DNA of 61,340 nucleotides from Puniceicoccaceae bacterium (GTDB taxonomy: Bacteria > Verrucomicrobiota > Verrucomicrobiia > Opitutales > Coraliomargaritaceae): assembly GCA_007117865.1 (NCBI GenBank), contig SKFT01000018.1, positions 1-61,340 on the forward strand, read 5' to 3'. The translations under genes were made by a program, and so were the position numbers. The notes below the pieces were generated by a model. That model ran no database searches and was not told the DNA's origin. It saw only the letters and a list, made by a program, of their open reading frames with translations. Positions within the stretch are counted from its first letter, which is position 1. Each line of letters opens with the position of its first letter. Below are positions 19,273-34,572 of this stretch, in pieces.

Positions 19273-21419
19273 AGTTTAGGATCAAAAGCGATTGGCAAAA
19301 TCAAGGTGAAAAAGGTGCCTGCTGCTGGCGTTGAGTGAACCGAAATGCGGCCACTGTGCTGCTCTATAATCTTTTTGACTATCGCCAATCCGAGTCCAGT
19401 GCCAGCCGAAGCCTCGCGCAAACCGGTGTCTCTGGAGGTGACAAAAGGATCGAAAATACTCTGCATAAAACCATTGTCCATGCCCATGCCGTTGTCGGCA
19501 ATGCGTATTTCCACCGCTTCCAGTTGGTAGGAATTCAGACCTTTTACGGGGGCACATGTGATGGTGATACGGCCCGTTTCGGGGCGGCCATCCCACTCGC
19601 TGATGGCGTGCATGGCATTCTCCAACAAGTTGCGAAGGACTTGTAGCAGCTGATCAAAATTTCCCTTGATCAAGGGTGCCTGCGGATCGCAGTTAACGCT
19701 TAGAACAATATTATGTTGTATCAGTTCGGAACTGAAGAGTGCCTGCGCTTCGTTTAGCAATGATTCAGGATCCACAGGAGCGAGGGAAGGGGGCGAGTTC
19801 TGTGCGAAAGCAGCCACACTTTCGACAATAGCACTGATCCTCTGAATGTCGCGGCTGACGATTTTGCCAAAGTCCTTGTTCAGAGAGAGTGATGAAGGGG
19901 ATCTGTCCAGCAGGCCCGCCAGCGTGCGCACGGAAACCAGGGGATTGCGCAGTTCATGGGAGAGGCCTGCTGCCATTGTTCCGATGGAAACCAGCTTCTC
20001 CATGCGGTTGGTGGTGCGTTCGAGTTCTGCCGCTTTCAGCATTAGGCAGATGCGCGAAGCCAGATTGTCCAGCAGCAAGAAGTCCAATTGACCACAAGAA
20101 GCCAGGTTTTTGCTGGAGCCAATAATGATAAAACCATAAACCGCTTCAGCGGTTAGGATGGGCTGGATCAAGTCATTGGATTGGATATTAATCCCATCGG
20201 CATTCAATTGCTTCAGGGTTTTTCGCGAGGTCCAGTTTTCTGTGACAAGATTATCTTCCAAGGCGATGGCAAAGCGGTGCTTTGCCAGCAGTTTTGTCAA
20301 CGGCGCCACCTTGATCAGTGAGATATCTGCCGGCATGTCGCGATTGCCGTATTGCGACAGCCGTTGATAGCCTTCACCCAATTCGTTGCGCGCGTAGATG
20401 GATACATGACCAGCCGCCAGTATGTCGTGTAGTTGTGCTGTGATTTCTTCCAGTGGATGACTGGTATTGGGTGCAATCACGACGTTGTTGACGAGTTCAC
20501 TGAGTGCTTTGCGGAATTGAATTTTTTCCGGCATGAACTGTGATTGCAGCAAACGGTTAATCCACCTGGAAAAAGTGGGGGCAACAAGAATCAACAGACC
20601 CGAATGAAGGGTGAAAAACAAAAACAGGGGTAGACGATGCATTGACAAATCAATCGCTTCGGCGCGATTCATAACAAGTATCACAAAGGCGCCAAAACCA
20701 AGACCGAGGATCAGTGAAGCAAGGATAATACCGCTGATACGGATGGCCATTTCATTGAAATCAAGTAAGCGGTATTTAATTACGGAATAGCCGATCCCCA
20801 GGATATAAAAAACGCTCAATCCGTGTCCAATCGGTGGCATCGGAATCCCCATCCACATGGGGAAGTTGGTCCCGCCGCCAAGGAATCCGATAGCGGTGCC
20901 GATAATCAGATACTTATTTTGGTTTTTGATTTTCGCCGATGCGTTCAGGTATTGTTGGATCAATAGGAAGAAACAGTAACAGACAACAATCGCAAAGCCA
21001 CCGAAGTAAACCGGAAAAATGGGGCCCTGTATTGGCCAGTAGGGGAAGGTTAACTGGGCCTCGACCCCGATAAAGACAAGGTCATACATCCCCGCCAGTG
21101 AAACCAGCGAGGCGACCACATAGCCGCAGGGTAGTAGTAAGCGGTGTGCCTTGCCAGTTACCTCACTGACAAAGTGTAGGTAGGTGTAGGGGATGAATGC
21201 CGAGCTCACCACCAGCCAGCGCAACCAAAAAATGGCTTCCGCTTCGGTGGTCGCCAGTTGCCACATCAAGTGGGTAAACGACCAACTGCCGACGCTAAGT
21301 GCGAACAGGCAAAAGGTGCGATTGCGTCCAAGCCTTGCTCCCTTCAGCAACACAGCAATGATAAAGAAACCCGTAATCAGGGTAACCGCAAAGGAGCTGA
21401 CAACCAGATACCAATTCAT
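19269..21419 (-). CDS. Multi-TM GAF sensor histidine kinase
   Basis: 716 residues. The N-terminal ~270 residues hold about eight hydrophobic segments (LVVSSFAVTLITGFFIIAV onward), resembling the multi-TM sensor region of kinases such as PrsK or 7TM-type kinases. Next come a GAF-like domain (~300-455), HisKA with phospho-His in LSHELRNPLVSVRTL and HATPase with LLENAMHAI, DNGMGMD and GTGLGLAI. A membrane-embedded input domain without a large periplasmic loop fits a lipophilic ligand, as proposed for PhcS. It is coupled by ATGA on both sides: to the LuxD-methyltransferase gene upstream and the GAF-PAS gene downstream. Confidence 0.88.
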   Translation of the reverse strand: MNWYLVVSSFAVTLITGFFIIAVLLKGARLGRNRTFCLFALSVGSWSFTHLMWQLATTEAEAIFWLRWLVVSSAFIPYTYLHFVSEVTGKAHRLLLPCGYVVASLVSLAGMYDLVFIGVEAQLTFPYWPIQGPIFPVYFGGFAIVVCYCFFLLIQQYLNASAKIKNQNKYLIIGTAIGFLGGGTNFPMWMGIPMPPIGHGLSVFYILGIGYSVIKYRLLDFNEMAIRISGIILASLILGLGFGAFVILVMNRAEAIDLSMHRLPLFLFFTLHSGLLILVAPTFSRWINRLLQSQFMPEKIQFRKALSELVNNVVIAPNTSHPLEEITAQLHDILAAGHVSIYARNELGEGYQRLSQYGNRDMPADISLIKVAPLTKLLAKHRFAIALEDNLVTENWTSRKTLKQLNADGINIQSNDLIQPILTAEAVYGFIIIGSSKNLASCGQLDFLLLDNLASRICLMLKAAELERTTNRMEKLVSIGTMAAGLSHELRNPLVSVRTLAGLLDRSPSSLSLNKDFGKIVSRDIQRISAIVESVAAFAQNSPPSLAPVDPESLLNEAQALFSSELIQHNIVLSVNCDPQAPLIKGNFDQLLQVLRNLLENAMHAISEWDGRPETGRITITCAPVKGLNSYQLEAVEIRIADNGMGMDNGFMQSIFDPFVTSRDTGLREASAGTGLGLAIVKKIIEQHSGRISVHSTPAAGTFFTLILPIAFDPKL

Positions 21420-23110
21420 TTGAGAGCAAACACCAGATTTGCCTGATCACCAAAGGAGCGATAGACCTTAGGCTCCCTGAAACCAGCGGCAATTGCGACC
21501 TCCATCAACTCATGCTTTTCATAGAATTTATATATGCCCTCCTCCTCCTTGAGCTTGATGGCCCCTGCAGCACTCAGCAGGTCGCGGGCCGACTGCAATG
21601 TTTGCTCGCCGCGGGCCTCCTCGACAACATCCTTGTAGATAACCGACAGATCGCAGTAGGGTTTCATGCTGGAGACGATCATTTTGCCCCCCGGTTTGAG
21701 GATGCGAAACAGTTCATCCATTAAATAATCCGGCTGTTTAAGGTAGGATATGAGCAGGCTGCAGCAGATGCGGTCAACGGCATCGTCTTCGAATGGCAAG
21801 CGTTTAGCCGCGCCCCTGGGCGCATCGATAGCGTCGAGATCGAAGCGATAGTATAGGCGGTTTAACGGAATCTCGTCGAGACTGACGGAGTTGTGACGTT
21901 TTACGGCATCACCCAAGCCCTTGGCGGTCAGGTCGAGTCCAAAATACAAGGGTGGTGAATCGCCGAAGTCGGCTTGTCGCTGCAGCAGATCGCGCAGGCA
22001 CCAGGCACCAAACAGGCCATTACCGCAACCGCAGTCAAAATAGATGTGATCACTTTCAACCGGTCCCAGGCAGCGACCAATCAGATCCAAATATTCCTGA
22101 TAATCGCCCACTGACTCCAGGATGTTATATTTATCCAGATACGCCTTCCAGAAGGTTTGCTCATCCTCGCGCTCCGGTGCGGCATTTCTCAAACGATCGC
22201 GCTCCAGACGATTTTGTTGGAAAAGCCGTGCCTTGCAGGGTTGGCGGATGCTGTCTTTGCGGCCAGTTAATTTTTTGAGTGGCGACTTCGCCCGTATTGC
22301 GTGAATGAGTTGGTCGACGGCAAACTTAGCCGCCTCAGGACTTTCGCGCAATTCATGCATGGCACCGGGAATGTTGATGTGGTGGACGCAATCGCCTGCC
22401 GCCATCAGCCGCTCGACCTGCTCGGTGGTGACCCATACATCGCGCTCGGCACTCAATAGATAAACCGGACAGCGGACTTTGCGGATGTCGGCAATGGAAC
22501 CCTCCAGCGTATGTAAATCATGGCGAATGCAATCCTGCAAAAAAGCATCGACATCAACCTGATGGCCCAAGATATCGGAGATGCCCTGCATCTGTCCGGC
22601 CAGGTATTCGGCCACCATGTCGCGTTGGTAAACCTCCCTGGCAGTGTGTTGGAAGTCAATCACGCCGACCAGCGTCGCCAAGCGCTCGATGCGCCGGTCG
22701 ACAGCTGCGACGCGCAATGCACAGCGTGCCGACAGGCTGTTGGCAACCAGTCGGATGCGCGTTACGGAGTGCGTCTTTTCCAGGTAGTCGACTGCGGCAA
22801 TGATATCCTCAATCGCGCTGGAAAAAGTGTATTGCTCAATATTGCCATCGCTTTCGCCGACATGATTGCTGTGATCGAATCTCAGCACCCGCATGCCGTT
22901 GGCGGCCAATTGGTAGCTCAGTTGCAGATTATTCTTCTTGGATTCGCCAAACTTGGGACAAATGACCACATAGGGCGCATCGTCCGGCACCGCCTCGCAG
23001 GTATCCATCACACCAACGATGCGCTTGCCGGCACGGGAATGAAAAATCACGATCTGGCTATCGACAGGGACGGATTCAGTTTTGTCGGCTGACAGTGTAG
23101 CTGAAGGCAT
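21416..23110 (-). CDS. LuxD-type acyltransferase/thioesterase fused to SAM methyltransferase
   Basis: 564 residues in two parts. Residues ~20-275 are an alpha/beta hydrolase strongly like LuxD, the myristoyl-ACP thioesterase of bacterial bioluminescence: RFDHSNHVGESDGNIEQYTF matches the LuxD block RYDSLHHVGLSSG, and ANSLSAR matches its nucleophile site. By recalled alignment the triad is S125, D224 (AERDVW) and H252 (AMHEL). Residues ~310-564 are a class I methyltransferase with motif I DCGCGNGLFG (359-368) and LFRILKPGGKMIVSS. The combination suggests release of a fatty acid from ACP followed by methylation, giving a fatty-acid methyl ester. First gene of a four-gene operon of signalling proteins, divergent from a kinase-FadL pair. 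The product is inferred, not shown. Confidence 0.85.
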   Translation of the reverse strand: MPSATLSADKTESVPVDSQIVIFHSRAGKRIVGVMDTCEAVPDDAPYVVICPKFGESKKNNLQLSYQLAANGMRVLRFDHSNHVGESDGNIEQYTFSSAIEDIIAAVDYLEKTHSVTRIRLVANSLSARCALRVAAVDRRIERLATLVGVIDFQHTAREVYQRDMVAEYLAGQMQGISDILGHQVDVDAFLQDCIRHDLHTLEGSIADIRKVRCPVYLLSAERDVWVTTEQVERLMAAGDCVHHINIPGAMHELRESPEAAKFAVDQLIHAIRAKSPLKKLTGRKDSIRQPCKARLFQQNRLERDRLRNAAPEREDEQTFWKAYLDKYNILESVGDYQEYLDLIGRCLGPVESDHIYFDCGCGNGLFGAWCLRDLLQRQADFGDSPPLYFGLDLTAKGLGDAVKRHNSVSLDEIPLNRLYYRFDLDAIDAPRGAAKRLPFEDDAVDRICCSLLISYLKQPDYLMDELFRILKPGGKMIVSSMKPYCDLSVIYKDVVEEARGEQTLQSARDLLSAAGAIKLKEEEGIYKFYEKHELMEVAIAAGFREPKVYRSFGDQANLVFALK

Positions 23111-23195: not shown

Positions 23196-25187
23196 GTGAG
23201 TTTAATCCTTCTCATCAGCCAACCAACTTCGATACCCAAAGCATTGGAGTACCTATTGTCTGAACTGCAATGTACCTGGGTCTATCGCAATGACCCCAGA
23301 TCCGTTGCTTCAGCTGTCAGTCGCGGCGCCTTTGAGCACGCGGTATTCTATTTGGCCAAAGGCGATGAACCGCAGTTGGAGGCGATTACTTTTTTGCGCG
23401 AGAGTTGCCGCGATTTGGTCATCTACGTGATTGCCGCTGACAACTGTCAACAGGCCTCGGAGCGGGTAATTCAAAGCGGTGCCGATCTGTATCTCGCAGA
23501 ACCCGTTTCCGAACGATTATTGCATCGCTTGCTGCATTTACCAACGACAACGGTCAAGCCACTGCCGGAGAGCGCAATTGCCGCACCGCAAATGAATGAT
23601 TTTCCCGCCAATGTCCGGCCACCCTCCGAGTTGCAAATTCTGCGTGATTTTTCGCGTATCCTTGGCTTTAGTTTGGATTACCAGGCATTCAGTGGTCACT
23701 TTATTCTCAAGCTGCGTGAATTCATCAGTTTTAGCCGCATTGCGCTTTTTCTTCTGGAACCCTCGGCCCAACCTATAATCAAGAAAACAAACAACGCGCG
23801 CCTGCATTGTATTGCCTCACTTGGGATCCCTGCTGACCTAATTAACTGTTTTCAGCTCAATCGTGAAAGTGGTTTGGGTAAAGCGGTATTTGCCCAACCG
23901 CGCATCCTGCACATTCAATCCCCCGGGCTGGATCCAGCCGCGAGGAAGGAATTGGCGATTTTGGATTGTCAGATTGCGGTGCCCATCAGTGATCGTGAGC
24001 GGGTGATAGGCGTTGCGGTATTGAACGGATCCGTTACTGGAAGGGACTACAGCGACGATGAGCTTCAATTGCTGTATTTGTTGATGGAAGAGCTGGGGCT
24101 TGCCATTCGCAACTGCTGGTTGCACATGGAGCTCAAGCGTCATGGTCAACTCGTTGGCAACGTTCTCGGCGCGATTAGCAGTGGCGCTCTGGTTGTGGAT
24201 GACGCGCTCAACATTCTCTACGCCAATCCGGCGGTTTACCGCTTCCTAAGCAAGATCGAGCGCGCGCATGTGAAAATCCCCTTTGCCGAATTACCCTCCC
24301 GCCTGGCAAGCCGCTTGCACCGTGCCATTGAGAAAGGGGAACGCATCGAACCCTTCTTTATGCCGGGTGTGGATGAGCAATCATTGTACCGGGTAGCGAT
24401 TTTCCCATTTAATGATAGCTATGACTCTAGCAGCGGGGCTGGCGCTGTTATGGTCGTTTTGGAGGACTACACCAAGATTGAAGCCGTCAAGCAAACGGCT
24501 TTGCAGAACTCGCGCGAGGGAATTATCCGGACCATTGCCGAGCGCTTTGCCCACGAAATTCGCAATTCACTGGTGCCGCTGACCACCCACGCGCAGTTGT
24601 TGGATAGCCGCATGGGCGAAGCCGATTTCCAGCAATCCCTTAAACATGCCTTGATGAGCGAGTGCGGACGCATCAAGCGCTTCAGTGAACAAATGCTTTA
24701 CTTGGCGAGTGAGTCCATCGCTTTGGACAGCTCCATTGAGATCGTCGCCATTTTACAACAAAGCTTTGAGCGTGCGCAGGTCTTTTGTAAGATGCCGGCA
24801 AAAATGCATTTTCACGAGCCTTTGCCGGCATGTAAAGTGTATGGCAACAAGCAGGCCCTGCAAGAAGCCTTCGAGGAGCTCTTCATCAACGCGCTGCAGG
24901 AGGGGATGGATGAGCCAGTCGTCGATTTGGCACTGGCACCGGATCCCGATTCCAGCATGCTAAAGGTCAGCATTCGCGACAACGGTTGCGGTTTTGCCGC
25001 CGAGAAACTGCAGCAGGTGATGGAGCCATTCTTTACCACCCGCAATACCGGTGTGGGCTTGGGACTTTCAGTGGCACAGCGGATCATTCGTGCGCACCAT
25101 GGGTCTTTGTGCCTGGCATCCAGGCAAGACGGTGCCGAATGGGATATACAAATCGAACTGCCGCTTTGCCGCATAACTCCATCATGA
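23130..25187 (+). CDS. Soluble histidine kinase: pseudo-receiver, GAF, PAS, HisKA, HATPase
   Basis: 685 residues from TTG 23130; GTG 23196 (663 residues) is an equally plausible start because it begins exactly at the first strand of the receiver-like domain (LILLISQ). That domain (to ~135) lacks the acidic pocket and the phospho-Asp (the position reads FYLAKG), so it is a pseudo-receiver. A GAF domain (~165-330) and PAS domain (~340-440, NVLGAISSGALVVDDALNI) follow, then HisKA with FAHEIRNSLVPL and HATPase with FINALQEG, DNGCGF and GVGLGLSV. No membrane segment. Divergent from the LuxD-methyltransferase operon; its TGA overlaps the FadL ATG. Confidence 0.85.
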   Translation: MICKRQLKRTLHSLECLIFFSPVSLILLISQPTSIPKALEYLLSELQCTWVYRNDPRSVASAVSRGAFEHAVFYLAKGDEPQLEAITFLRESCRDLVIYVIAADNCQQASERVIQSGADLYLAEPVSERLLHRLLHLPTTTVKPLPESAIAAPQMNDFPANVRPPSELQILRDFSRILGFSLDYQAFSGHFILKLREFISFSRIALFLLEPSAQPIIKKTNNARLHCIASLGIPADLINCFQLNRESGLGKAVFAQPRILHIQSPGLDPAARKELAILDCQIAVPISDRERVIGVAVLNGSVTGRDYSDDELQLLYLLMEELGLAIRNCWLHMELKRHGQLVGNVLGAISSGALVVDDALNILYANPAVYRFLSKIERAHVKIPFAELPSRLASRLHRAIEKGERIEPFFMPGVDEQSLYRVAIFPFNDSYDSSSGAGAVMVVLEDYTKIEAVKQTALQNSREGIIRTIAERFAHEIRNSLVPLTTHAQLLDSRMGEADFQQSLKHALMSECGRIKRFSEQMLYLASESIALDSSIEIVAILQQSFERAQVFCKMPAKMHFHEPLPACKVYGNKQALQEAFEELFINALQEGMDEPVVDLALAPDPDSSMLKVSIRDNGCGFAAEKLQQVMEPFFTTRNTGVGLGLSVAQRIIRAHHGSLCLASRQDGAEWDIQIELPLCRITPS

Positions 25188-26377
25188 AACGAAAACAAAC
25201 CCAATCAAAATTCGCGTCAGCCTTGGTCTGCATTTTGTTGACCATCGCCGCACAATCCATTCATGCTGCGGCAACGCGCATTGCGTTTATCGATGCTTTT
25301 GCCACTGCCCGCGGCAACGCATTTGCCGCTACCGCCGACAACCCCTCGGCGATATTCTACAATAGTGCGGGATTGACCCAACTCGAGGGAACGACACTGC
25401 AGGCCAACGTCTTTGCCATCTCACTCGATTACGATTATAAGGGTGCCGGTGTGCGGGACCATTTGGACAATAGCTTTCAGCCCGTGCCATCATTGTTTCT
25501 GGCCCACCGATTTGAGGAGCGTCCCTTTGCCATCGGCTTTGGCGTCTACGCGCCGTTTGCGCTGGGAACCGACTGGGGAGCCAACGCCAGTTTTGCCGGC
25601 GCTGATCCATCAGTGCCCTATGAGGCGGATTTGTCTTATGTCAAATACCACGGTGTCGTCGCATGGCAAATAACCGACACTCTGTCGCTGTCCGCTGGCC
25701 TTAGCTACGACGCTGCTGATATCGATGTCAAGGCAACCGCTCTGCGCTACGATGGTAGTGACAATACCCTTGGATACTCCATGGCATTGCATTGGAAGCC
25801 CCATCTTAAGCATGCCTTTGGCTTAAACTACCAAGCAAGGACGAGTGTGCGCTTCAGCGGCACGGCAGAGGTGATGATAGCTCCCAATACCTACTTGCCA
25901 TTACCGGCATCAGCCAATCTGGTTTTTCCGGAATCGATCACCTTTGGCTATTCCTATCGTCCCAATGAGCATTGGAATTTTGAGTTCAACCTCGATTGGA
26001 CCAACTGGGATCGCGTCAATACCCTTACCCTGGACGGCGTTCCCGGTGCCAGCTACGATTTGAACTGGCAGTCGGCTTTTATTTGGGAGTTTGGTGCCAC
26101 CCGCTATCTTCGTGACGGTTGGCATGTGAGTGGCGGCTATACCTATGTGGAAAATGCCGTGCCCGACCGCGATTTTCTGCCGATCGTGCCCGATTCCAAC
26201 CGCCATTTTTTCGGCTTTGGAGTCGGACGCAGCTATGAGCATTGGCGCTGGCAGGCAACCTATCAATATGCCTACGCAAGTGACCGCGGAGTCAGTGGTA
26301 ATACGCGTCCGGCACTGGATGGTAAGTGGGGGTTGGACAGCCATGCGCTTAGCTTTTCTCTCGGTTATCGTTTTTGA
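25184..26377 (+). CDS. FadL/OMPP1/TodX-family outer-membrane protein
   Basis: 397 residues with a signal peptide (SALVCILLTIAAQSIHAAA). The mature N-terminus carries the family hatch pattern TADNPSAIFYNSAGLTQLEG, followed by alternating amphipathic strands and a C-terminal LGYRF aromatic end typical of outer-membrane barrels. FadL-type channels take up long-chain fatty acids or other hydrophobic molecules. Start fixed at ATG 25184, which overlaps the kinase stop (ATGA); the longer open frame lies inside the kinase. Coupling to a kinase next to a fatty-acid-releasing enzyme suggests uptake of a long-chain signal, which is inference. Confidence 0.88.
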   Translation: MKRKQTQSKFASALVCILLTIAAQSIHAAATRIAFIDAFATARGNAFAATADNPSAIFYNSAGLTQLEGTTLQANVFAISLDYDYKGAGVRDHLDNSFQPVPSLFLAHRFEERPFAIGFGVYAPFALGTDWGANASFAGADPSVPYEADLSYVKYHGVVAWQITDTLSLSAGLSYDAADIDVKATALRYDGSDNTLGYSMALHWKPHLKHAFGLNYQARTSVRFSGTAEVMIAPNTYLPLPASANLVFPESITFGYSYRPNEHWNFEFNLDWTNWDRVNTLTLDGVPGASYDLNWQSAFIWEFGATRYLRDGWHVSGGYTYVENAVPDRDFLPIVPDSNRHFFGFGVGRSYEHWRWQATYQYAYASDRGVSGNTRPALDGKWGLDSHALSFSLGYRF

Positions 26378-26420
26378 TCGCAGTCACTCATTATCCGGAC
26401 CGTTATTGACTAATTTGCCT

Positions 26421-26450
26421 TTGCATTCCGCCGAAAAGCAGTCATTATAT
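26421..26450 (+). promoter_or_regulatory. Candidate promoter of the ECF sigma operon
   Basis: TTGCAT (26421-26426) and TTATAT (26445-26450) are spaced by 18 bases just upstream of the sigma-factor gene. A start about 7 bases after the -10 would fall at the 26458 ATG, so the message would be leaderless unless translation begins at the in-frame ATG 26521. Weak -35 match. Confidence 0.35.
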
Positions 26451-26457
26451 GCTTTAA

Positions 26458-27090
26458 ATGAACATAGTGCGCTCAGCAACCAAGGTCTTTGCCAGTGACA
26501 AAGATCAGTCCACCAGCGGAATGGATGTGGACTTTGCCTTGGTTGAAAGGGTGCAAACGGGTGATGTGGCCGCTTTTGATGAATTGGTGCGCAAATACCG
26601 GACGCGTCTGTATTCGGTTATGTATAATTTGACTGGCAACCGCGAAGACGCCAGCGATTTAACTCAGGACGCCTTTATTAAAGCCTTTCAATCGATTGGG
26701 CGCTTTCGCGGCAAATCCGCTTTTTATACCTGGCTCTACCGCATTGCAGTCAACCATGCGCTGACTTTTATTAAAAAAAACCGCCGCCGGCGTTTTTTCA
26801 GCTTTGATAATATGACAGAAGAGGCGGGTGCGGATGAGATTTTTGAAGCGATTGCCTCGAAAACCCGCACGGAAAAAGCTGTTTTAATGGAAGAATTACA
26901 GGAACGATTGAACGAAAGTCTCCAAAAGTTGTCCGAAAAGCATAGAGCTGTTGTCGTTTTACACGAAATTGAAGGACTTAGCCATGCGGAGATCGCCGAA
27001 ATAACCGGTGCATCCATTGGCACCGTCCGCTCCCGATTGCATTACGCTAAAAACCAACTTCAAGCCGATCTACAACCTTACCTAAGCTAA
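26458..27090 (+). CDS. ECF-family RNA polymerase sigma factor
   Basis: 210 residues from ATG 26458; ATG 26521 would give a protein beginning MDVDFALVERVQ, which is closer to family starts. Sigma region 2 is LTQDAFIKAFQSIGRFRGKS with TWLYRIAVNHAL; region 4 is LSEKHRAVVVLHEIEGLSHAEIAEITGASIGTVRSRL. The sequence resembles the RpoE-like (envelope stress) group. It heads an array with a single-TM partner, an HtrA-like protein, a GH42-like protein and a hybrid kinase, which may be its regulators or targets. Confidence 0.92.
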   Translation: MNIVRSATKVFASDKDQSTSGMDVDFALVERVQTGDVAAFDELVRKYRTRLYSVMYNLTGNREDASDLTQDAFIKAFQSIGRFRGKSAFYTWLYRIAVNHALTFIKKNRRRRFFSFDNMTEEAGADEIFEAIASKTRTEKAVLMEELQERLNESLQKLSEKHRAVVVLHEIEGLSHAEIAEITGASIGTVRSRLHYAKNQLQADLQPYLS

Positions 27091-27107: not shown

Positions 27108-27683
27108 ATGAAAGCAGATAAAAACTTTACCAAACCAGCAGTTAGCTTGGAACAATTGTTGCGCTTGAAACGAGCTGAAAAGCCTGAGGAGGTCTTTTGG
27201 GACCGTTTCGACAGGGAGTTGCACGGGCGCATGCTGCGAACCCTGGTCAACAGCGAAACAAAATCCATGGGTTGGTCGCGCTGGTTGCGCATGCGCTGGC
27301 TGCAGGCTGGTGCTGTGGCTGCTTGCGCGGTTTTACTCGCCCTGGTTGCTGTTGACCTGCGTACGCAGGAGCAAGCAGGAACAGTCAGTCCGTCAGCAGT
27401 GGCATTGCAACCGCAATTGCCGGATGTATCCCGGCAAACCGCTTCGCCGGCAGTGGCAGCCAGTGCGATTGCGGCAGAAGCTGAGGCAATGGTGGAGCGA
27501 ACTGATTTTGGTATCGGTCGAGTTGCGAGTGCCAAACCCCAATCGGAATTGTCCTTTAGTCGAGATTTTGGTGCCAACTCTGTGCGCGTCGCTGTGGCTA
27601 GCTCTATCGACAGCTACCGTATGGATTATGCCAGCGATAGTGTTTTTGGTTCGCAATCGGCTCGCGGACGCCTTGTTTACTGA
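27108..27683 (+). CDS. Single-pass membrane protein, probable anti-sigma partner
   Basis: 191 residues. A charged N-terminal cytoplasmic part of ~60 residues (SLEQLLRLKRAEKPEEVFWDRFDRE) precedes one membrane helix at ~65-83 (AGAVAACAVLLALVAVDL), and the rest is an Ala/Ser/Val-rich, probably periplasmic domain. Size, topology and position 17 bases after the ECF sigma gene are those of an anti-sigma factor. No zinc-binding HxxxCxxC motif is present, so it would be a non-zinc type. The role is inferred from context. Confidence 0.6.
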   Translation: MKADKNFTKPAVSLEQLLRLKRAEKPEEVFWDRFDRELHGRMLRTLVNSETKSMGWSRWLRMRWLQAGAVAACAVLLALVAVDLRTQEQAGTVSPSAVALQPQLPDVSRQTASPAVAASAIAAEAEAMVERTDFGIGRVASAKPQSELSFSRDFGANSVRVAVASSIDSYRMDYASDSVFGSQSARGRLVY

Positions 27684-27703: not shown

Positions 27704-28792
27704 ATGTCTATGCCGCTATTTTGCAAACTGTGCCGCTTAAGTATCGTTGCCCTTCTGTTTTTCTCCGGTGCCACTCTCACTGTATCAGCCGCATCCCGCT
27801 TGCAGCAGCGGATGGTGGAGATTTACAACGAGACAGAACCGGCGATTGTTCGCGTTAAAGCGGCTTTTCGTGATACTTCGCGGTCCGATAATGAACGGGC
27901 GCATGTCACTCTGCGGGTCGGTACGGGTTTTTTCTACAATCGCGAGGGGCATGTCATCGTCAACGCCAGTCGTGCCTATGGTGCCGATCGCGTGTGGATT
28001 GAATACAAGGGGCAGGCTTATGCCGCCGAGCCGTTGGGACATGATCGGCTGACCAATATCTCTGTTTTACGCGTATTGGAGCCGCCGGATACGTTTGGCT
28101 TTATCTCCCTCGATCCAGGCGTTCCGCGTCCGGATATTGGCAGTCTGGTATTCACTGTGGCCCACTCGCTTGATTTCGATGCCTCGCCGGGCTTTGGTTT
28201 GATCACTGGTATTGAAAATCGCCTCGGGGTGCAAATTTTTCCTACCCATTACCTGCGTTCAACGATTTCCGTTGAGGTTGGTGAGGGGGGCTGTCCTTTG
28301 CTGGATATTAATGGGCGCCTGATTGGTATCACCGTTGCGTCAATTCCCGAGATTGGCTCCTCCTACGCCTTGCCCACCGATGCGCTCATTCGCGTTCGCG
28401 ATGACATTGTCAACTTTGGTGAGATGATTCACAGCTGGATGGGTTTCGAGGTGGGTGAGCGCGATGGCAGTCGTGATCAGTATCCGGTTTTCCTATCCAA
28501 AATTATCGCCGACACCCCGGCCTACGAAAGTGGACTGCGTGAGGGAGATACCCTGATCGCCATAGATGGGCGTAAGATTGGTGGTGTTGCCGATGTACCT
28601 GGTGCAGTCTTTTTTACCCGTTCCAATCAGAATGCAACGGTGCGCGTGGAGCGCGAGGGCGAGGTTTTGGAATTCAGCGTGCGCACTTTGCCCCGTCCCC
28701 AGCGTGATCCTTTATTATTGCCGCGCGGCGAGGAAGAAGGTGAGATCCCTGTTGGTGTGAGTCCGCAGGATATGGAGTTGCTGGTGGAATGA
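27704..28792 (+). CDS. HtrA/DegP-like protein lacking the catalytic triad, with PDZ domain
   Basis: 362 residues with a signal peptide (LSIVALLFFSGATLTVSAAS). The chymotrypsin-like domain is recognisable (VGTGFFYNREGHVIVNAS, then PLLDINGRLIGI) and is followed by one PDZ domain (residues ~235-330, IIADTPAYESGLREGDTLIAI with GRKIGG). Compared with DegP, the catalytic His site (TNNHV) reads VNASR, the Asp site (QSDIAL) reads LTNISV and the Ser site (GNSGGAL) reads GEGGCPL. All three triad residues are replaced, so it should be proteolytically inactive and perhaps acts as a periplasmic sensor or binding protein. Its TGA overlaps the next ATG. Confidence 0.82.
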   Translation: MSMPLFCKLCRLSIVALLFFSGATLTVSAASRLQQRMVEIYNETEPAIVRVKAAFRDTSRSDNERAHVTLRVGTGFFYNREGHVIVNASRAYGADRVWIEYKGQAYAAEPLGHDRLTNISVLRVLEPPDTFGFISLDPGVPRPDIGSLVFTVAHSLDFDASPGFGLITGIENRLGVQIFPTHYLRSTISVEVGEGGCPLLDINGRLIGITVASIPEIGSSYALPTDALIRVRDDIVNFGEMIHSWMGFEVGERDGSRDQYPVFLSKIIADTPAYESGLREGDTLIAIDGRKIGGVADVPGAVFFTRSNQNATVRVEREGEVLEFSVRTLPRPQRDPLLLPRGEEEGEIPVGVSPQDMELLVE

Positions 28793-30699
28793 CTGTTATG
28801 GAGACATACCCCTGCAAAAATTTTATCTTCGCTTGCGAATACGATCCTTTTCTGTATTCGCCAGAACAGTGGCAAGCACACTGTCTATGGCTTGCCAACT
28901 GCGGTATCAATCAAGTCCACTTTGGCCGTGGCATGTGGTCGCTATTGGATGCTTCCACCGACGGTGCCGTAGTTGAAAAATGTCTGCAATTTGCCGATCT
29001 TGTGATGCAACATGGTATGTCGGTGGTGGTTTCCGCCGGCACCGATCGCATGCCATGCAAGCTGTCTGCTATATGGCAATCTTCGCCAAAGGGCTATGCC
29101 GCCGCTTATCGCGAAGCGCGCAGTCAGTGGCTGACATGCCTGTTTTCAGCTTTGGCGGGACACCCCGCCTGCGCGGGTTGGGGCCTTTCTGCGGACGAAG
29201 TTTCTACTGCCATGCACGTCTCGCAGGCGGATGGTGCAGGAGCCTTCCAAGCATGGCTGCAGGAGCAGTTTGCGTCGATTGAGCACTTCAATCGGCAACT
29301 TTTTCCTCACAGTTGGGCTGATTGGCATGTGCAATGGGAGTCTGTTGGCATACCCGTATCCGCAGATCCTCTGCCCCTGTGCCTGGCTTATCGCAGCTAT
29401 CGCAAGCATGCACAGCACGCGGCTATAGCCGATATTTTCGAGGATGGTTTGGCCTTGGATAGTACAACCGTATTATTCAGTCCATTTGTCATCCCGGCCG
29501 TCCCCGCCAAGCAGCTATTGCTAAAGGATTGGCCAATGGCGAAGGACTGGGGTTCGGATGCCGCGCAGTTGCAGGCATTGTTGCCGCCAGTGACAGCGGG
29601 ACAAACACATACCAAGCCATTGTTATTGCGCCTGTATTCTGAAAATACTGCTGAATTAGGTCAACTTCAGGCTGACCCCCATCGCTTGCGTTTGCTGATA
29701 TGGCGCGCTTTTTTAGCGGGTGCACAGGGCGTGGTATGGCCGCAGTTTTTAGCTTTCAATGAAGTCGGGTGCCGAGCGCTTCCCTTGTTGCCACTGCACC
29801 GGGCGCAAGCCGCCTCCCATTCACATCCTATCCGCACCTGCAAGGAGTGGATTCAGGGACAGCCGTGCCAAAGCACTGTGCTGACCGATTGTGCCTTGAT
29901 TTGTTCCACCACGGAAAACAGCGACGGGACAATTGCTGCAGTTGCCGATAGCGTCACCTTGTTGGAGGATTATCGTCAGGCTTTTCGGTCACTGGGGATT
30001 AACCACACGCCAATTGATACCAGCGTGGATTTTGGTCAGTTCAAAGCCATTTTCGCGCCGCTTTTACCTTGCGTCGATGCCTCCCTGCTGGAGCGGCTGA
30101 TTACTTTTGTCGAAAAGGGGGGACTATTGGTGACGGGTTTTGAATGTGGCAAATGGAATCCGCAGGGTGCTCCGTTGGATGACAATCTGCAGGCATTGTG
30201 GGAACGGTTAACCGGTTTATCGGTATCCGCTTGCCTGTCCTGTCCGGAGGCGGAAGGGCTATCGATTAAGATGCTCGACGGACGGTTGGTTAAGGCGGGA
30301 TACCGTTGTGAGTCCTTGGCCCTGGATGGCGCCATCGCCATGGCCACCTACAGCAATGGACCCTTTGCTGGTGGTCCCGCGCTAGCGGTCAATTCATTGG
30401 CTCGTGGCAAGGTGTTCTACCTTGGCATGCGCCCCAAATCTTCCTTCTATCGTTACGCGCTGGCAGATCTGGCGGATCAATTGGATTTGCAGCGACCGGC
30501 TTTTGAAGTGGGAGAGGGGGTTGAAATGATTGAAATACGTGCGCAGGATACGCATTATTTCGCGCTTACCAATACCAGTAATGAAGCAGCCGTGCTGGAT
30601 TGGAAGGCCATTCGCGGCACCGATTTGTTTACTGGCAAAGCATGTCGTGGACGCACTAGTCTGGCTGCCGCGGAAACGATTTGGCTGCGCGTGGATTAG
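28789..30699 (+). CDS. Divergent GH42 beta-galactosidase-like protein
   Basis: 636 residues without a signal peptide. The N-terminal barrel resembles GH42 (FACEYDPFLYSPEQWQAHCLWL, INQVHFGRGMWSLL), the middle has a glutamine-amidotransferase-like trimerisation segment (LLERLITFVEKGGLLVTGF), and a small C-terminal beta domain follows. The expected acid/base site (NE) appears as ADEVS in GWGLSADEVS, and the nucleophile Glu of GH42 is not obvious at the corresponding place (KPLLLRLYS). It may be a sugar-binding relic or an enzyme with altered catalysis. Its ATG overlaps the pseudo-HtrA stop and it is 3 bases from the hybrid-kinase gene. Confidence 0.6.
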   Translation: MTVMETYPCKNFIFACEYDPFLYSPEQWQAHCLWLANCGINQVHFGRGMWSLLDASTDGAVVEKCLQFADLVMQHGMSVVVSAGTDRMPCKLSAIWQSSPKGYAAAYREARSQWLTCLFSALAGHPACAGWGLSADEVSTAMHVSQADGAGAFQAWLQEQFASIEHFNRQLFPHSWADWHVQWESVGIPVSADPLPLCLAYRSYRKHAQHAAIADIFEDGLALDSTTVLFSPFVIPAVPAKQLLLKDWPMAKDWGSDAAQLQALLPPVTAGQTHTKPLLLRLYSENTAELGQLQADPHRLRLLIWRAFLAGAQGVVWPQFLAFNEVGCRALPLLPLHRAQAASHSHPIRTCKEWIQGQPCQSTVLTDCALICSTTENSDGTIAAVADSVTLLEDYRQAFRSLGINHTPIDTSVDFGQFKAIFAPLLPCVDASLLERLITFVEKGGLLVTGFECGKWNPQGAPLDDNLQALWERLTGLSVSACLSCPEAEGLSIKMLDGRLVKAGYRCESLALDGAIAMATYSNGPFAGGPALAVNSLARGKVFYLGMRPKSSFYRYALADLADQLDLQRPAFEVGEGVEMIEIRAQDTHYFALTNTSNEAAVLDWKAIRGTDLFTGKACRGRTSLAAAETIWLRVD

Positions 30700-30702
30700 A
30701 CA

Positions 30703-33700
30703 ATGGCTGTTCCAATCAACGCCAAGCACACGGGATTTAGCCAAGCCAAGGCACGATGCTTTGTTCATTGCCTGATCCACCGGTTACTGGCACTTGCGTG
30801 TGGACTGCTTCTGGCGTCTTTGCCGCTGAACGCTGATACCGATTTGAGCCTTGACGCAAGCGAACCCATTACTGTCTCGCTCGATCATTCTTGGCCCCCT
30901 TTTTCTTTCGTTGATAAGAGCGGCATTCCGCAGGGTATTTTGGTGGATTTTTGGCACGAGGTTGGCCAGCGCAGCGGACGTTCGGTTCATTTCCAGATGG
31001 TTGATTGGCCGGATACCATTCAGCTATTACGGGACGGAGAGGTGGACTTTCATGGTGGACTTTTCCGCTCGCCCGAGCGCCTCGAGTTTATGGACTTTTC
31101 GTCGCAACTGCTGCCGCTCAGTGCCTTTGCTTTTGTCCGCCGTGAGTCGGGCTATATGCAACTGGAGGACCTTGAGGGGAGCAAGGTCGGGGTGACTCAG
31201 GGCAGTTATGAAGCCGAGGTGCTGGGTCGTAGCTACCCCGGGGCTATACAAGTGACATTTTCCAACAACGCTCAAATGGTACAGGCAGCCTCAGCGGGTA
31301 TGATTGACGCATTTATTGCGGATTTTCCTGTCGGCATGTATTTACTCAATGAATTTTCCAAACCGGAGGATTTTCATCCCTTGGCACCACTCTACTCAGA
31401 ATACCTCAGGATTGGCGTGCGTCAGGGAAGCAAGCTGCATTTGGCTTTTGCCAACAAAATGCTGGATACCTTCTCGGATCAGGAATTGCGACGATTTGCT
31501 ATGCGCTGGGTGGTGGTTGAGAGGGAGTCGATCGTGCCCTTTCAGTTTTATCTCTATGCGCTGTTGGTGTTATTGATCGCCGTAATGTTTGTCTATGTGC
31601 TTTTATTGCGCCGTCAAAAGTGGCTCATCGATAGTGAACGCGATAGTATCCAGGAGCGTCTGGATTTGCAAAGTGCGGCACTGGATGCAGCTGCCAATGG
31701 TATTGTGATTACCGATACCAATGGTTGTATCGAATGGGCCAATCCTGCTTTTGCCAAAATGACGGGTTACTCGCTCGACGAAGTAAAAGGCCATGAACCT
31801 GGTGAATTATTGCGCTCGGGTGAGCATGACCAGGCCTTTTACCGGAAAATGTGGGATAGCATTCTTCAGGGTAAAGTCTGGCATGGCGAAGTAACCAATC
31901 GCAGAAAAGACGGGACTCATTATGCCGAGGAGATGACAATTACGCCTATGCGCAATCGCGCAGGGGCGATTTGTAACTTTGTCGCCATCAAGCAGGATGT
32001 AACCCTGCGAAAAATCATTGAAGCACGCGTTGCAGAGGGGGAATCACGCTTGCGATCGGTGTTGAAGACACTGCCAGGAATTGTCTATCGGATACAATTA
32101 ACACCCGATGACCAATTTGTTTTTACCTTTATCAGCGAGGGCCTTGTTGCCATGACGGGCGTTACCGTCGGACAGGTCCTTGCCGATGCCAATAGGGTTT
32201 TTGATCGACTACACCCGGATGATCGGAACTGGGTCATGGTTGACAGCATTGACTACGCGCGTAAAGCGCTCCCGTGGAATGGACAGTTCCGGCTGTTGGA
32301 TAAGCACGACCATTGGGTATGGGTCGAGGCAAATGACATACCACAGCGGTTGCCCGATGGAAGCGTAATGATAACGGGCTATCTTAGCGACGTAACAGCC
32401 AAGAGAGAGTTGGCAGAACAGGTGAATCATCAGGCTTCCATGCAAAAGTTAATCGCTGATGTTTCGGCGCGCTTTGTCACCGCCAACATCCATACAATTG
32501 ATGGAACTATTCAATGGATGTTGGAAAAGTGCGGTCGATTCTTGCAGATGGACCGCGCCTATCTGATCCAATTGTCCAGCGACAGCGATTGCGGAATGAA
32601 TAGCCATGAGTGGTGCGCCGAGGGAATAACGCCGTCAGTTTACAGTGCCAGTCCAATGGTGCTCGACGAGCTTCCTTGGATGAAAAAGATGATTCAAAGA
32701 CGGATTTTTCTGAATATACCGGATGTGCAAGCACTGCCCCCAGCCGCAGAGGCCGAGAAGGCAGCATTCAGCGCACAGGGAATACAGTCATTTTTCGCCA
32801 TCCACCTGCAGGCCGACAATCAGCATTTCGGTTTTGTGTGTTTCGATTGTGTCAACAGCAAAGCCAAGTTGAAACCAGACGATCATGGATTGCTGTCAAT
32901 ATTGACGAATATTCTAAGCGATGCACTGAAGCAGAATCAATTCGAGCTGGAGCTGCTAACCGCCAAGCAGGAAGCTGAAAAGGCAAATGCCACCAAGAGT
33001 CAGTTTGTCGCCAATATGAGTCACGAAATCCGCACTCCTCTCAATGGCATCATAGGATTGGCGCGGTTGTTGGTTGATTCTCCGCTGAACGAGGAACAAA
33101 AATCCTTGATCAAGGCAATGCAGAGCAGCGGTGATATTCTGCTGGCCTTGATTAATGATATTTTGGATTTGACGAAAATCAGCGCTGGCAAGCTGGAGCT
33201 GGATGAACACCCTTTTGTGTTTAAGGATGTGGTTGATGATTTAATTACGGCTTTTGAGCTGCAGGCGCAGGACAAGCAGATTCGACTGACATACTCGATG
33301 GATGAAGTCTTGAATCGGCGCTTTCTCAGCGATGTAAACCGAATCAAGCAAATCCTCGTCAATTTAATCAGCAATGCGATAAAGTTTACCCCGCATGGCG
33401 GCAAGGTAAACGTTAGCTTCAATGGCACACTGCGGGAGGATGGTCGGATGGACTTACGCGTATTGGTAAAGGATACGGGTATCGGCATCGATCTCGCCAA
33501 TCAGTCGAAGCTCTTTGATGCCTTTCAGCAGGGTGATGCCTCGATTACCCGCCGATTCGGCGGGACTGGACTGGGCCTGGCCATTTGCAAAAGTCTGGTT
33601 GAGATCATGAACGGAAGCATCAAATTCCAAAGCCAAATCGGTATTGGTACGGAGTTTGTCGTTAACTTGCCTGTAACGGTTATGGGGGATGCAGGGGTTT

Positions 33701-34572
33701 CTGAATCAGCCGCCGACAATCAAGCAGAAAGCTGTAACATTCAATTTCAAGGCAAACGGATTTTGCTGGTCGAGGACAACTCCGTCAACCAAATGGTGGC
33801 AACTAGGATGCTTGCAAAATACGGGATTGAGGTCAACATAGCGCACAATGGACTGGAGGCTCTAGAAATCCTGCGTAAGCGAAGCTTTGATTTGATTTTG
33901 ATGGATTTGCAGATGCCCGTTATGGATGGTGTCACTGCCGCGCGTAAAATTCGCAATGGCCATTGCGGCAAGGATTTGGCCAATAAACCGATTATCGCGA
34001 TGACGGCGCACGCGCTGGTAGAGGATCGTGAACGCTGCCTGCAAGCAGGAATGAATGATTTTATCACAAAACCCTTTAGTGTCGACCAACTTTTGTTGGT
34101 CATTGGAAAGCAGTTGGATGGTGACCACACGACGCAAGAGGAGCCATTGGCAGATGCCGCTGTTAAGACTCCGCCAGCTGGTGAATCGCCATTGGCAGAT
34201 ACTGAGGACGCTTCTGAAGCGCTTGTCAGCGTGTTTGATCCGGACGCTATGCAACGGAACTTATTTGAGGATAAAGCAATGCTTGACGAAGTCGTGCATT
34301 GCTTTATCAAAGATGCGCCCGCAAGAATGGTTGAACTGGTGCAATCGATTCATCAGCGCGATGCCACTGAGGCGCGCAAGCAAATCCACGCCTTAAAGGG
34401 TTCCAGTGGCTACCTGCATGCCACTATCTTTATCAACGGATTGAATGCGATTCGGGAGCAGTTGTTAAAGGACGATTTTGTCGCTGCCGAAAAAGCGGTG
34501 GAACACGTGGAAGAGGCCTTTGCCAATTTACGCGCCGCTCTCGAGTGTTGGTTATCTGAGCGCTCAACATAA
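30703..34572 (+). CDS. Hybrid histidine kinase with periplasmic solute-binding sensor, PAS, GAF, REC and HPt
   Basis: 1289 residues. Signal/anchor (~25-45), a periplasmic SBP_bac_3-type domain (~55-275, ITVSLDHSWPPFSF ... GVTQGSYEAEV), one TM helix (~285-305), PAS domains (~320-440 and ~450-570), GAF (~580-740), HisKA with phospho-His near residue 771 (SHEIRTPLNGIIG), HATPase (~876-1000, DTGIGID, GTGLGLAI), receiver (~1018-1140, VEDNSVN, phospho-Asp in LILMDLQMPVMDG) and C-terminal HPt with HALKGSSG near residue 1228. It contains a complete internal phosphorelay. Follows the GH42-like gene by 3 bases, so its ligand may be linked to that protein. Confidence 0.93.
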   Translation: MAVPINAKHTGFSQAKARCFVHCLIHRLLALACGLLLASLPLNADTDLSLDASEPITVSLDHSWPPFSFVDKSGIPQGILVDFWHEVGQRSGRSVHFQMVDWPDTIQLLRDGEVDFHGGLFRSPERLEFMDFSSQLLPLSAFAFVRRESGYMQLEDLEGSKVGVTQGSYEAEVLGRSYPGAIQVTFSNNAQMVQAASAGMIDAFIADFPVGMYLLNEFSKPEDFHPLAPLYSEYLRIGVRQGSKLHLAFANKMLDTFSDQELRRFAMRWVVVERESIVPFQFYLYALLVLLIAVMFVYVLLLRRQKWLIDSERDSIQERLDLQSAALDAAANGIVITDTNGCIEWANPAFAKMTGYSLDEVKGHEPGELLRSGEHDQAFYRKMWDSILQGKVWHGEVTNRRKDGTHYAEEMTITPMRNRAGAICNFVAIKQDVTLRKIIEARVAEGESRLRSVLKTLPGIVYRIQLTPDDQFVFTFISEGLVAMTGVTVGQVLADANRVFDRLHPDDRNWVMVDSIDYARKALPWNGQFRLLDKHDHWVWVEANDIPQRLPDGSVMITGYLSDVTAKRELAEQVNHQASMQKLIADVSARFVTANIHTIDGTIQWMLEKCGRFLQMDRAYLIQLSSDSDCGMNSHEWCAEGITPSVYSASPMVLDELPWMKKMIQRRIFLNIPDVQALPPAAEAEKAAFSAQGIQSFFAIHLQADNQHFGFVCFDCVNSKAKLKPDDHGLLSILTNILSDALKQNQFELELLTAKQEAEKANATKSQFVANMSHEIRTPLNGIIGLARLLVDSPLNEEQKSLIKAMQSSGDILLALINDILDLTKISAGKLELDEHPFVFKDVVDDLITAFELQAQDKQIRLTYSMDEVLNRRFLSDVNRIKQILVNLISNAIKFTPHGGKVNVSFNGTLREDGRMDLRVLVKDTGIGIDLANQSKLFDAFQQGDASITRRFGGTGLGLAICKSLVEIMNGSIKFQSQIGIGTEFVVNLPVTVMGDAGVSESAADNQAESCNIQFQGKRILLVEDNSVNQMVATRMLAKYGIEVNIAHNGLEALEILRKRSFDLILMDLQMPVMDGVTAARKIRNGHCGKDLANKPIIAMTAHALVEDRERCLQAGMNDFITKPFSVDQLLLVIGKQLDGDHTTQEEPLADAAVKTPPAGESPLADTEDASEALVSVFDPDAMQRNLFEDKAMLDEVVHCFIKDAPARMVELVQSIHQRDATEARKQIHALKGSSGYLHATIFINGLNAIREQLLKDDFVAAEKAVEHVEEAFANLRAALECWLSERST

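Follow-up and report, generated by a model that had tools for sequence, protein, structure and literature searches.

An HtrA-like protein lacking the catalytic triad in an ECF sigma factor operon of Verrucomicrobiota suggests a sigma switch read by gripping rather than cutting

What could an HtrA-like protein do that has lost all three residues of its protease site and is encoded directly behind an ECF sigma factor and a membrane protein? The locus that raises this question lies on a contig of a Puniceicoccaceae bacterium (GCA_007117865.1, contig SKFT01000018.1), of which we analysed a stretch of 61,340 nucleotides, here called the window, from a source assembly of 1.86 Mb that is 83% complete. 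A first-pass annotation, made from the sequence alone, had proposed that the protein signals by binding and not by cleavage. Our search of the open-access literature brought up neither a dead HtrA within a sigma operon nor such a module in Verrucomicrobiota, nor an account of envelope-stress sensing in that phylum.

Fold and catalytic site of the HtrA-like protein

The gene and the parts of its product were located as follows.

27704–28792, + strand: gene for the HtrA-like pseudoprotease, 362 aa, with signal peptide, trypsin-like domain and one PDZ domain
27704–27793, + strand: probable Sec signal peptide, residues 1–30, ending in ...TVSA before an A, as read from the sequence
27920–28423, + strand: trypsin-like domain, residues 73–240 (Trypsin_2 at 73–209; model pLDDT mostly 90–98)
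27968–27970, + strand: Ser89 (AGT) at the catalytic His site, by residue-level alignment
28055–28057, + strand: Asn118 (AAT) at the catalytic Asp site, by residue-level alignment; Asn in 88 of 94 order orthologues
28286–28288, + strand: Gly195 (GGG) at the catalytic Ser site, by residue-level alignment
28436–28687, + strand: PDZ domain, residues ~245–328, with the carboxylate-loop motif W-M-G-F at 245–248 (PDZ_2 at 247–327)

The protein matched Trypsin_2 (E 7.7e-10) and PDZ_2 (E 2.6e-10) in Pfam, and a PDB sequence search matched it to structures of DegP, AlgW and DegS. A fold search of the PDB with its AlphaFold model (pLDDT 89.4) gave DegQ (3stj, E 7e-25), DegP and DegS at the top, all with E<1e-22, and DegS bound to OMP peptides was among the best matches. 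The carboxylate loop, which in HtrA PDZ domains holds the carboxylate of the ligand, was conserved in the order orthologues (G247 in 93 of 94, W245 in 72 of 94), and most of the family has a W/Y-hydrophobic-G-hydrophobic motif at the start of the PDZ domain. The HtrA fold and the PDZ domain are thus kept, as had been claimed. With a trypsin-like domain followed by a PDZ domain, and with export as judged from the signal peptide, the protein belongs by fold to the HtrA/Deg (S1C) group; the missing His-Asp-Ser triad (S89/N118/G195) sets it apart from the active serine proteases of that group. As described by sequence and model together, it is an HtrA fold without the triad, probably secreted rather than membrane-anchored. 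The Do/HtrA model TIGR02037 matched it with 7e-27, yet far under the model cut-off, the DegS equivalog TIGR02038 scored 73.5 bits against a cut-off of 422.95, and the model for MamO-type pseudoproteases, NF040961, scored 18.6 bits against a cut-off of 800.

Alignment with solved DegP-like and AlgW structures placed the changes at residue level: LTNNHV at the His site has become IVNASR (His to Ser89), (S/T)D(V)AVL at the Asp site has become TNISVL (Asp to Asn118) and GN(S/A)GGPL at the Ser site has become GEGGCPL (Ser to Gly195). All three replacements read by eye in the first-pass annotation therefore held. Four active HtrA controls in the same alignment run, two of them from the source genome, had H/D/S intact. 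Among 106 aligned orthologues, 12 of which came from a wider search of the phylum, there were no complete triads, with His at the His site in none, Asp at the Asp site in one and Ser at the Ser site in 11. A displaced triad, the other finding that could have spoken against a dead protease, was also sought in the 106 orthologues and gave no candidate. The substitutions have become fixed among orthologues encoded next to the same sigma gene. A single-genome pseudogene or a sequencing artefact is ruled out by the same 106 sequences.

The family has conserved features of its own, namely Asn118, a G-E/Q/D-G-G motif, Pro162 and Arg185. Its sole majority-conserved His is His83 (78 of 106), located six residues ahead of the His site at a strand start, with Leu, Thr or Gln at this position in most orthologues without the His. 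Pseudo-HtrAs from further families of the class were found to have dead triads too, some carrying Gly in place of Asp and Ile in place of Ser. The eleven dead orthologues with a Ser at the nucleophile site (L063, L071, L075, L078, L083–L085, L091, L092, L094 and L096), for instance within GDSGSP, have no His and no Asp; this Ser was either retained or regained. When 38 dead and six active proteins were placed in a maximum-likelihood tree, a branch with 100/100 support, present in all bootstrap trees, had the dead ones on one side. Because they form one clade, the loss of the triad is old and fixed, and the simplest reading suggested by these sequences is that it was lost once, anciently.

The sigma factor operon and its membrane protein

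Upstream of the pseudo-HtrA gene the following features were noted.

26420–26427, + strand: TTTGCATT box upstream of the sigma gene, a promoter candidate, with TTGCAwT conserved nearby
26458–27090, + strand: gene for an RpoE-like ECF sigma factor, 210 aa (Sigma70_r2 9.7e-21, Sigma70_r4_2 5.3e-16)
27108–27683, + strand: gene for a one-TM membrane protein, 191 aa, between the sigma and pseudo-HtrA genes
27297–27359, + strand: predicted TM segment of this protein, residues ~64–84, with an Arg-rich N side (N-terminus inside), read from the sequence and lying within the long helix of the model
27672–27680, + strand: C-terminal Leu-Val-Tyr of the membrane protein, a candidate PDZ ligand by conservation of the last residue

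The three genes share one strand, with gaps of 17 and 20 bases from sigma to membrane protein to pseudo-HtrA, in agreement with the operon originally described. The sigma factor reached the cut-off of the ECF superfamily model TIGR02937 and scored 163 bits with the RpoE model TIGR02939, against a cut-off of 236.15; it was the only close RpoE-like sigma found in the source assembly, being the best of four matches with the next at 52 bits. In 24 of 28 same-family loci (L004–L034) the sequence TTGCAwT occurred a short way ahead of the sigma ORF, at a sigma-70-like spacing from an AT-rich hexamer. The upstream stretches inspected by eye showed no GAACTT box of the RpoE type.

The gene immediately before the sigma gene, at 25175–26377, encodes a FadL/TodX-like outer-membrane protein, the end of which (...LGYRF) is a DegS-type YxF end. 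On the other side, a GH42-like protein with a trimerisation domain is encoded at 28789–30699, its start overlapping the pseudo-HtrA stop (ATGA at 28789); this neighbour was not conserved in the relatives inspected. Further out, 21416–23110 (− strand) encodes a 564-residue protein with an acyltransferase/alpha-beta hydrolase-like half and a methyltransferase half, and 30703–34572 encodes a 1289-residue hybrid histidine kinase with a periplasmic SBP_bac_3 sensor, PAS domains, a receiver and Hpt.

Scanning for related loci with one sequence gave none, and an alignment-based scan gave relatives; the named ones from the GTDB collection were Opitutales/Puniceicoccaceae, including Coraliomargarita sp. 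SDUM461004. Among 135 sampled genomes of the order, a sigma orthologue was found in 100, one per genome, and a pseudo-HtrA orthologue likewise in 100, such that 93 genomes had both end genes, 28 had neither, seven had only the sigma gene and seven only the pseudo-HtrA gene. The sigma-only genomes were six Opitutaceae-like ones of a single family (f13), plus G126. As for the seven with only a pseudo-HtrA, three of the genes were located at contig ends and three beside masked bases, and these six are uninformative as real gaps. Where both end genes were present, the order sigma, membrane protein, pseudo-HtrA was contiguous in 90 of 93 genomes, the exceptions being three genomes of one family (f16) in which the sigma and pseudo-HtrA genes are unlinked. 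A profile search of the phylum recovered this trio, in still more diverged form, from additional families of the class.

The membrane protein had no match in Pfam, in the PDB sequence search or in the fold search, and neither RseA_N (PF03872) nor any other known anti-sigma domain matched it. In predicted architecture it is RseA-like, with one TM segment, the N-terminus inside and its gene beside the sigma gene. Its short cytoplasmic N-terminus carries an LKxxExPxxxFW motif in which K21, P26, W31 and F34 were invariant in 38 orthologues, and position, topology and this motif together make it a putative anti-sigma factor. The model has helices at residues 14–23 and 28–88, the second of which spans the membrane, followed by ~100 residues of low confidence, presumably a disordered periplasmic tail.

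An element that had not been noted before is the aromatic C-terminal end of this protein. Of 88 distinct orthologues, 85 end in Phe or Tyr, as compared with 4.9% in a background of 671 ORFs, which were called mechanically in the fetched loci and the window with a minimum length of 150 aa. The nominal binomial P of 6e-107 refers to sequences that are related and not independent, and a fairer measure is the count of families in which the majority of members have a Phe/Tyr end (25 of 28). Hydrophobic residues were found at the third position from the end in 69% of tails, at the second in 37% and at the fourth in 15%; the rest of the tail is divergent and the positions flanking the aromatic end are not conserved. 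In three genomes with a pseudo-HtrA the membrane protein ends in K, M or N. HtrA-type PDZ domains take ligands of the hydrophobic-x-aromatic-COOH kind, and those of DegS and DegP bind C-terminal Tyr-X-Phe (PMC11642142). Mutual information between pseudo-HtrA residues and the choice of Phe or Tyr was only slightly higher for the PDZ domain (mean MI 0.117) than for the protease domain (0.096), a weak covariation that we do not count in favour of binding. A second, weak motif, [FY]Vx[DEGS], was present in 44% of tails versus 9% in shuffles. Tails of distant class members (L192–L200) have in common a longer end, roughly (Y/F)V...Y(E/D)xx(L/V)xF, which may contain a further short motif ahead of the aromatic residue.

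A proposed mechanism and its alternatives

These features suggest a sigma switch that is read by gripping, not cutting. The reading that we favour, with not quite even confidence, is that sigma factor, membrane protein and dead HtrA form a Verrucomicrobiota signalling module in which the dead HtrA caps the tail of the anti-sigma factor and signals by binding and release. The membrane protein would be the anti-sigma factor holding the ECF sigma, and the PDZ domain of the dead HtrA would grip its C-terminal aromatic residue, so acting as a periplasmic cap or sensor in a role that in E. coli is split between RseB and the DegS PDZ domain. The cap might be pulled off, for example where unfolded outer-membrane proteins expose C-termini suited to the same pocket, whereupon the freed tail could become a substrate of one of the cell's active PDZ proteases (Prc/CTP or an active HtrA), and RseP-type cleavage would then free the sigma factor. 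The pseudo-HtrA itself would signal by binding and release, its own cleavage not being involved. The source genome encodes RseP, two Prc/CTP proteases and two active HtrAs; past the presence of these parts, each mechanistic step is what we infer. The proposal of binding in place of cleavage is strengthened by the near-invariant aromatic end with regards to the pseudo-HtrA, and for the pathway as a whole it has to be narrowed, since cleavage elsewhere by RseP, Prc/CTP or the active HtrAs is possible.

A bolder version, which we regard as rather doubtful, is a class-wide Verrucomicrobiota switch in which a dead HtrA, and not DegS with RseB, senses the outer membrane by ligand competition, the resting PDZ domain holding the OMP-like end of the anti-sigma factor until unfolded OMP ends displace it, with no cleavage by the sensor. 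If true, the module would follow the sigma-E logic in a PDZ-gated, non-catalytic form, its sensor being dead and the aromatic end built in, and the first step could be tested with short peptides.

Genomes without the pseudo-HtrA speak against the cap reading, as do the three K, M or N ends in genomes that have a pseudo-HtrA and the unlinked genes of family f16. In family f13, which is taken to be Opitutaceae, most of the genomes sampled (L120–L125) have the sigma factor and the membrane protein and no pseudo-HtrA. In those read, the membrane protein is much longer (268–300 aa) with a conserved end of its own, ...LYDSxxRxG...(I/L/V)KF; the last residue is still aromatic in these genomes (IKF, LKF, VKF or FRF). 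As some f13 members (L188–L191) still have the pseudo-HtrA, it was probably lost in the others. Because genomes lacking the pseudo-HtrA keep the aromatic end, that end must have another reader there, such as an active protease; our guess is that competition between cap and protease for the aromatic end would fit this pattern.

The Opitutaceae ends also favour a different explanation, in which the dead HtrA is an effector, namely a non-proteolytic periplasmic chaperone under sigma control, as MucD or DegP are in other sigma-E regulons, with a PDZ domain that serves unfolded OMPs, while the aromatic end signals site-1 cleavage by an active HtrA or Prc/CTP, both of which the genome encodes. A sigma, anti-sigma and MucD operon inside the sigma-E regulon is known (PMC4229105), and HtrAs without proteolysis are still chaperones (PMC11642142). 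We nevertheless consider this explanation unlikely, as it leaves unexplained both the loss of the triad in the whole clade with the operon link kept and the finding that genomes without one end gene are mostly without both; a pure chaperone could moreover relocate, yet the genes are unlinked in one family only.

It is improbable that the dead HtrA is instead an activator or decoy that assembles with an active HtrA and switches the cleavage of the membrane protein. Such an activity, besides metal binding, is known from the dead trypsin-like/HtrA relative MamO, which promotes MamE-dependent proteolysis (PMC4794232), and active HtrAs do coexist in the source genome, but no active HtrA gene was found beside the operon, and the module is retained in small genomes of the order that have few HtrA-like genes. 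Quite improbable, too, is a repurposing of the trypsin-like domain as a receptor for metal, lipid or glycan, with the PDZ domain merely tethering it to the membrane protein. Metal binding by MamO through a di-histidine (PMC4794232) offers a precedent and the domain has retained its own conserved features; however, no specific ligand signature was found and His83 is kept in just 78 of the 106 orthologues. Neutral decay of a functionless protease on its way to loss, to which its absence from several genomes of the family could point, has next to no probability in view of the intact reading frames, the invariant positions and the conservation throughout the order and in other families of the class.

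Comparison with known systems

Compared with the DegS/RseA/RseB/sigma-E system of E. coli, the module is alike in its RpoE-type ECF sigma factor, its one-TM partner with the N-terminus inside and the RseP encoded in the genome, and, with regards to DegS, in a periplasmic HtrA fold whose single PDZ domain is expected to take aromatic C-termini as ligands. It is unlike that system in that the HtrA is dead and probably secreted, not membrane-anchored, and in that the putative anti-sigma factor itself bears an OMP-like end. RseA_N was found in none of 135 genomes of the order (with a positive E. coli control), RseB in two of 123 and then marginally at most, one barely over the cut-off, and the DegS model gave no match reaching its cut-off among the 135 genomes. 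The comparison with DegS/RseA drawn in the first-pass annotation is hence reduced to an analogy, and membership of the proteobacterial sigma-E system is ruled out by these searches together with the Opitutales (Verrucomicrobiota) relatives.

The order sigma, anti-sigma, HtrA is also that of algU-mucABCD in Pseudomonas, where MucD is regarded as a protease, and of sigE-rseA-htrA in Mycobacterium (Rv1221–Rv1223). It is found as well in rpoE-rseA-mucD of Xanthomonas and Stenotrophomonas (PMC4229105). The mucD operons belong to another phylum and differ from the present one in the presumed protease activity of MucD and in their middle gene, the product of which is here without detectable Pfam or PDB similarity. 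The mycobacterial HtrA-like protein Rv1223, which is predicted to be essential, differs in having a large cytoplasmic domain (PMC3062566) and likewise stems from another phylum. MamO of magnetotactic bacteria, HtrA/trypsin-like and dead, with independent dead copies known (PMC4794232), resembles the pseudo-HtrA in its degenerate triad and non-catalytic role, and is unlike it in that it binds metal in magnetosome formation, activates MamE and has no sigma operon. If the proposed module is real, its pseudo-HtrA would be an ancient pseudoprotease retained for a signalling role, a counterpart of MamO that extends across a whole bacterial class.
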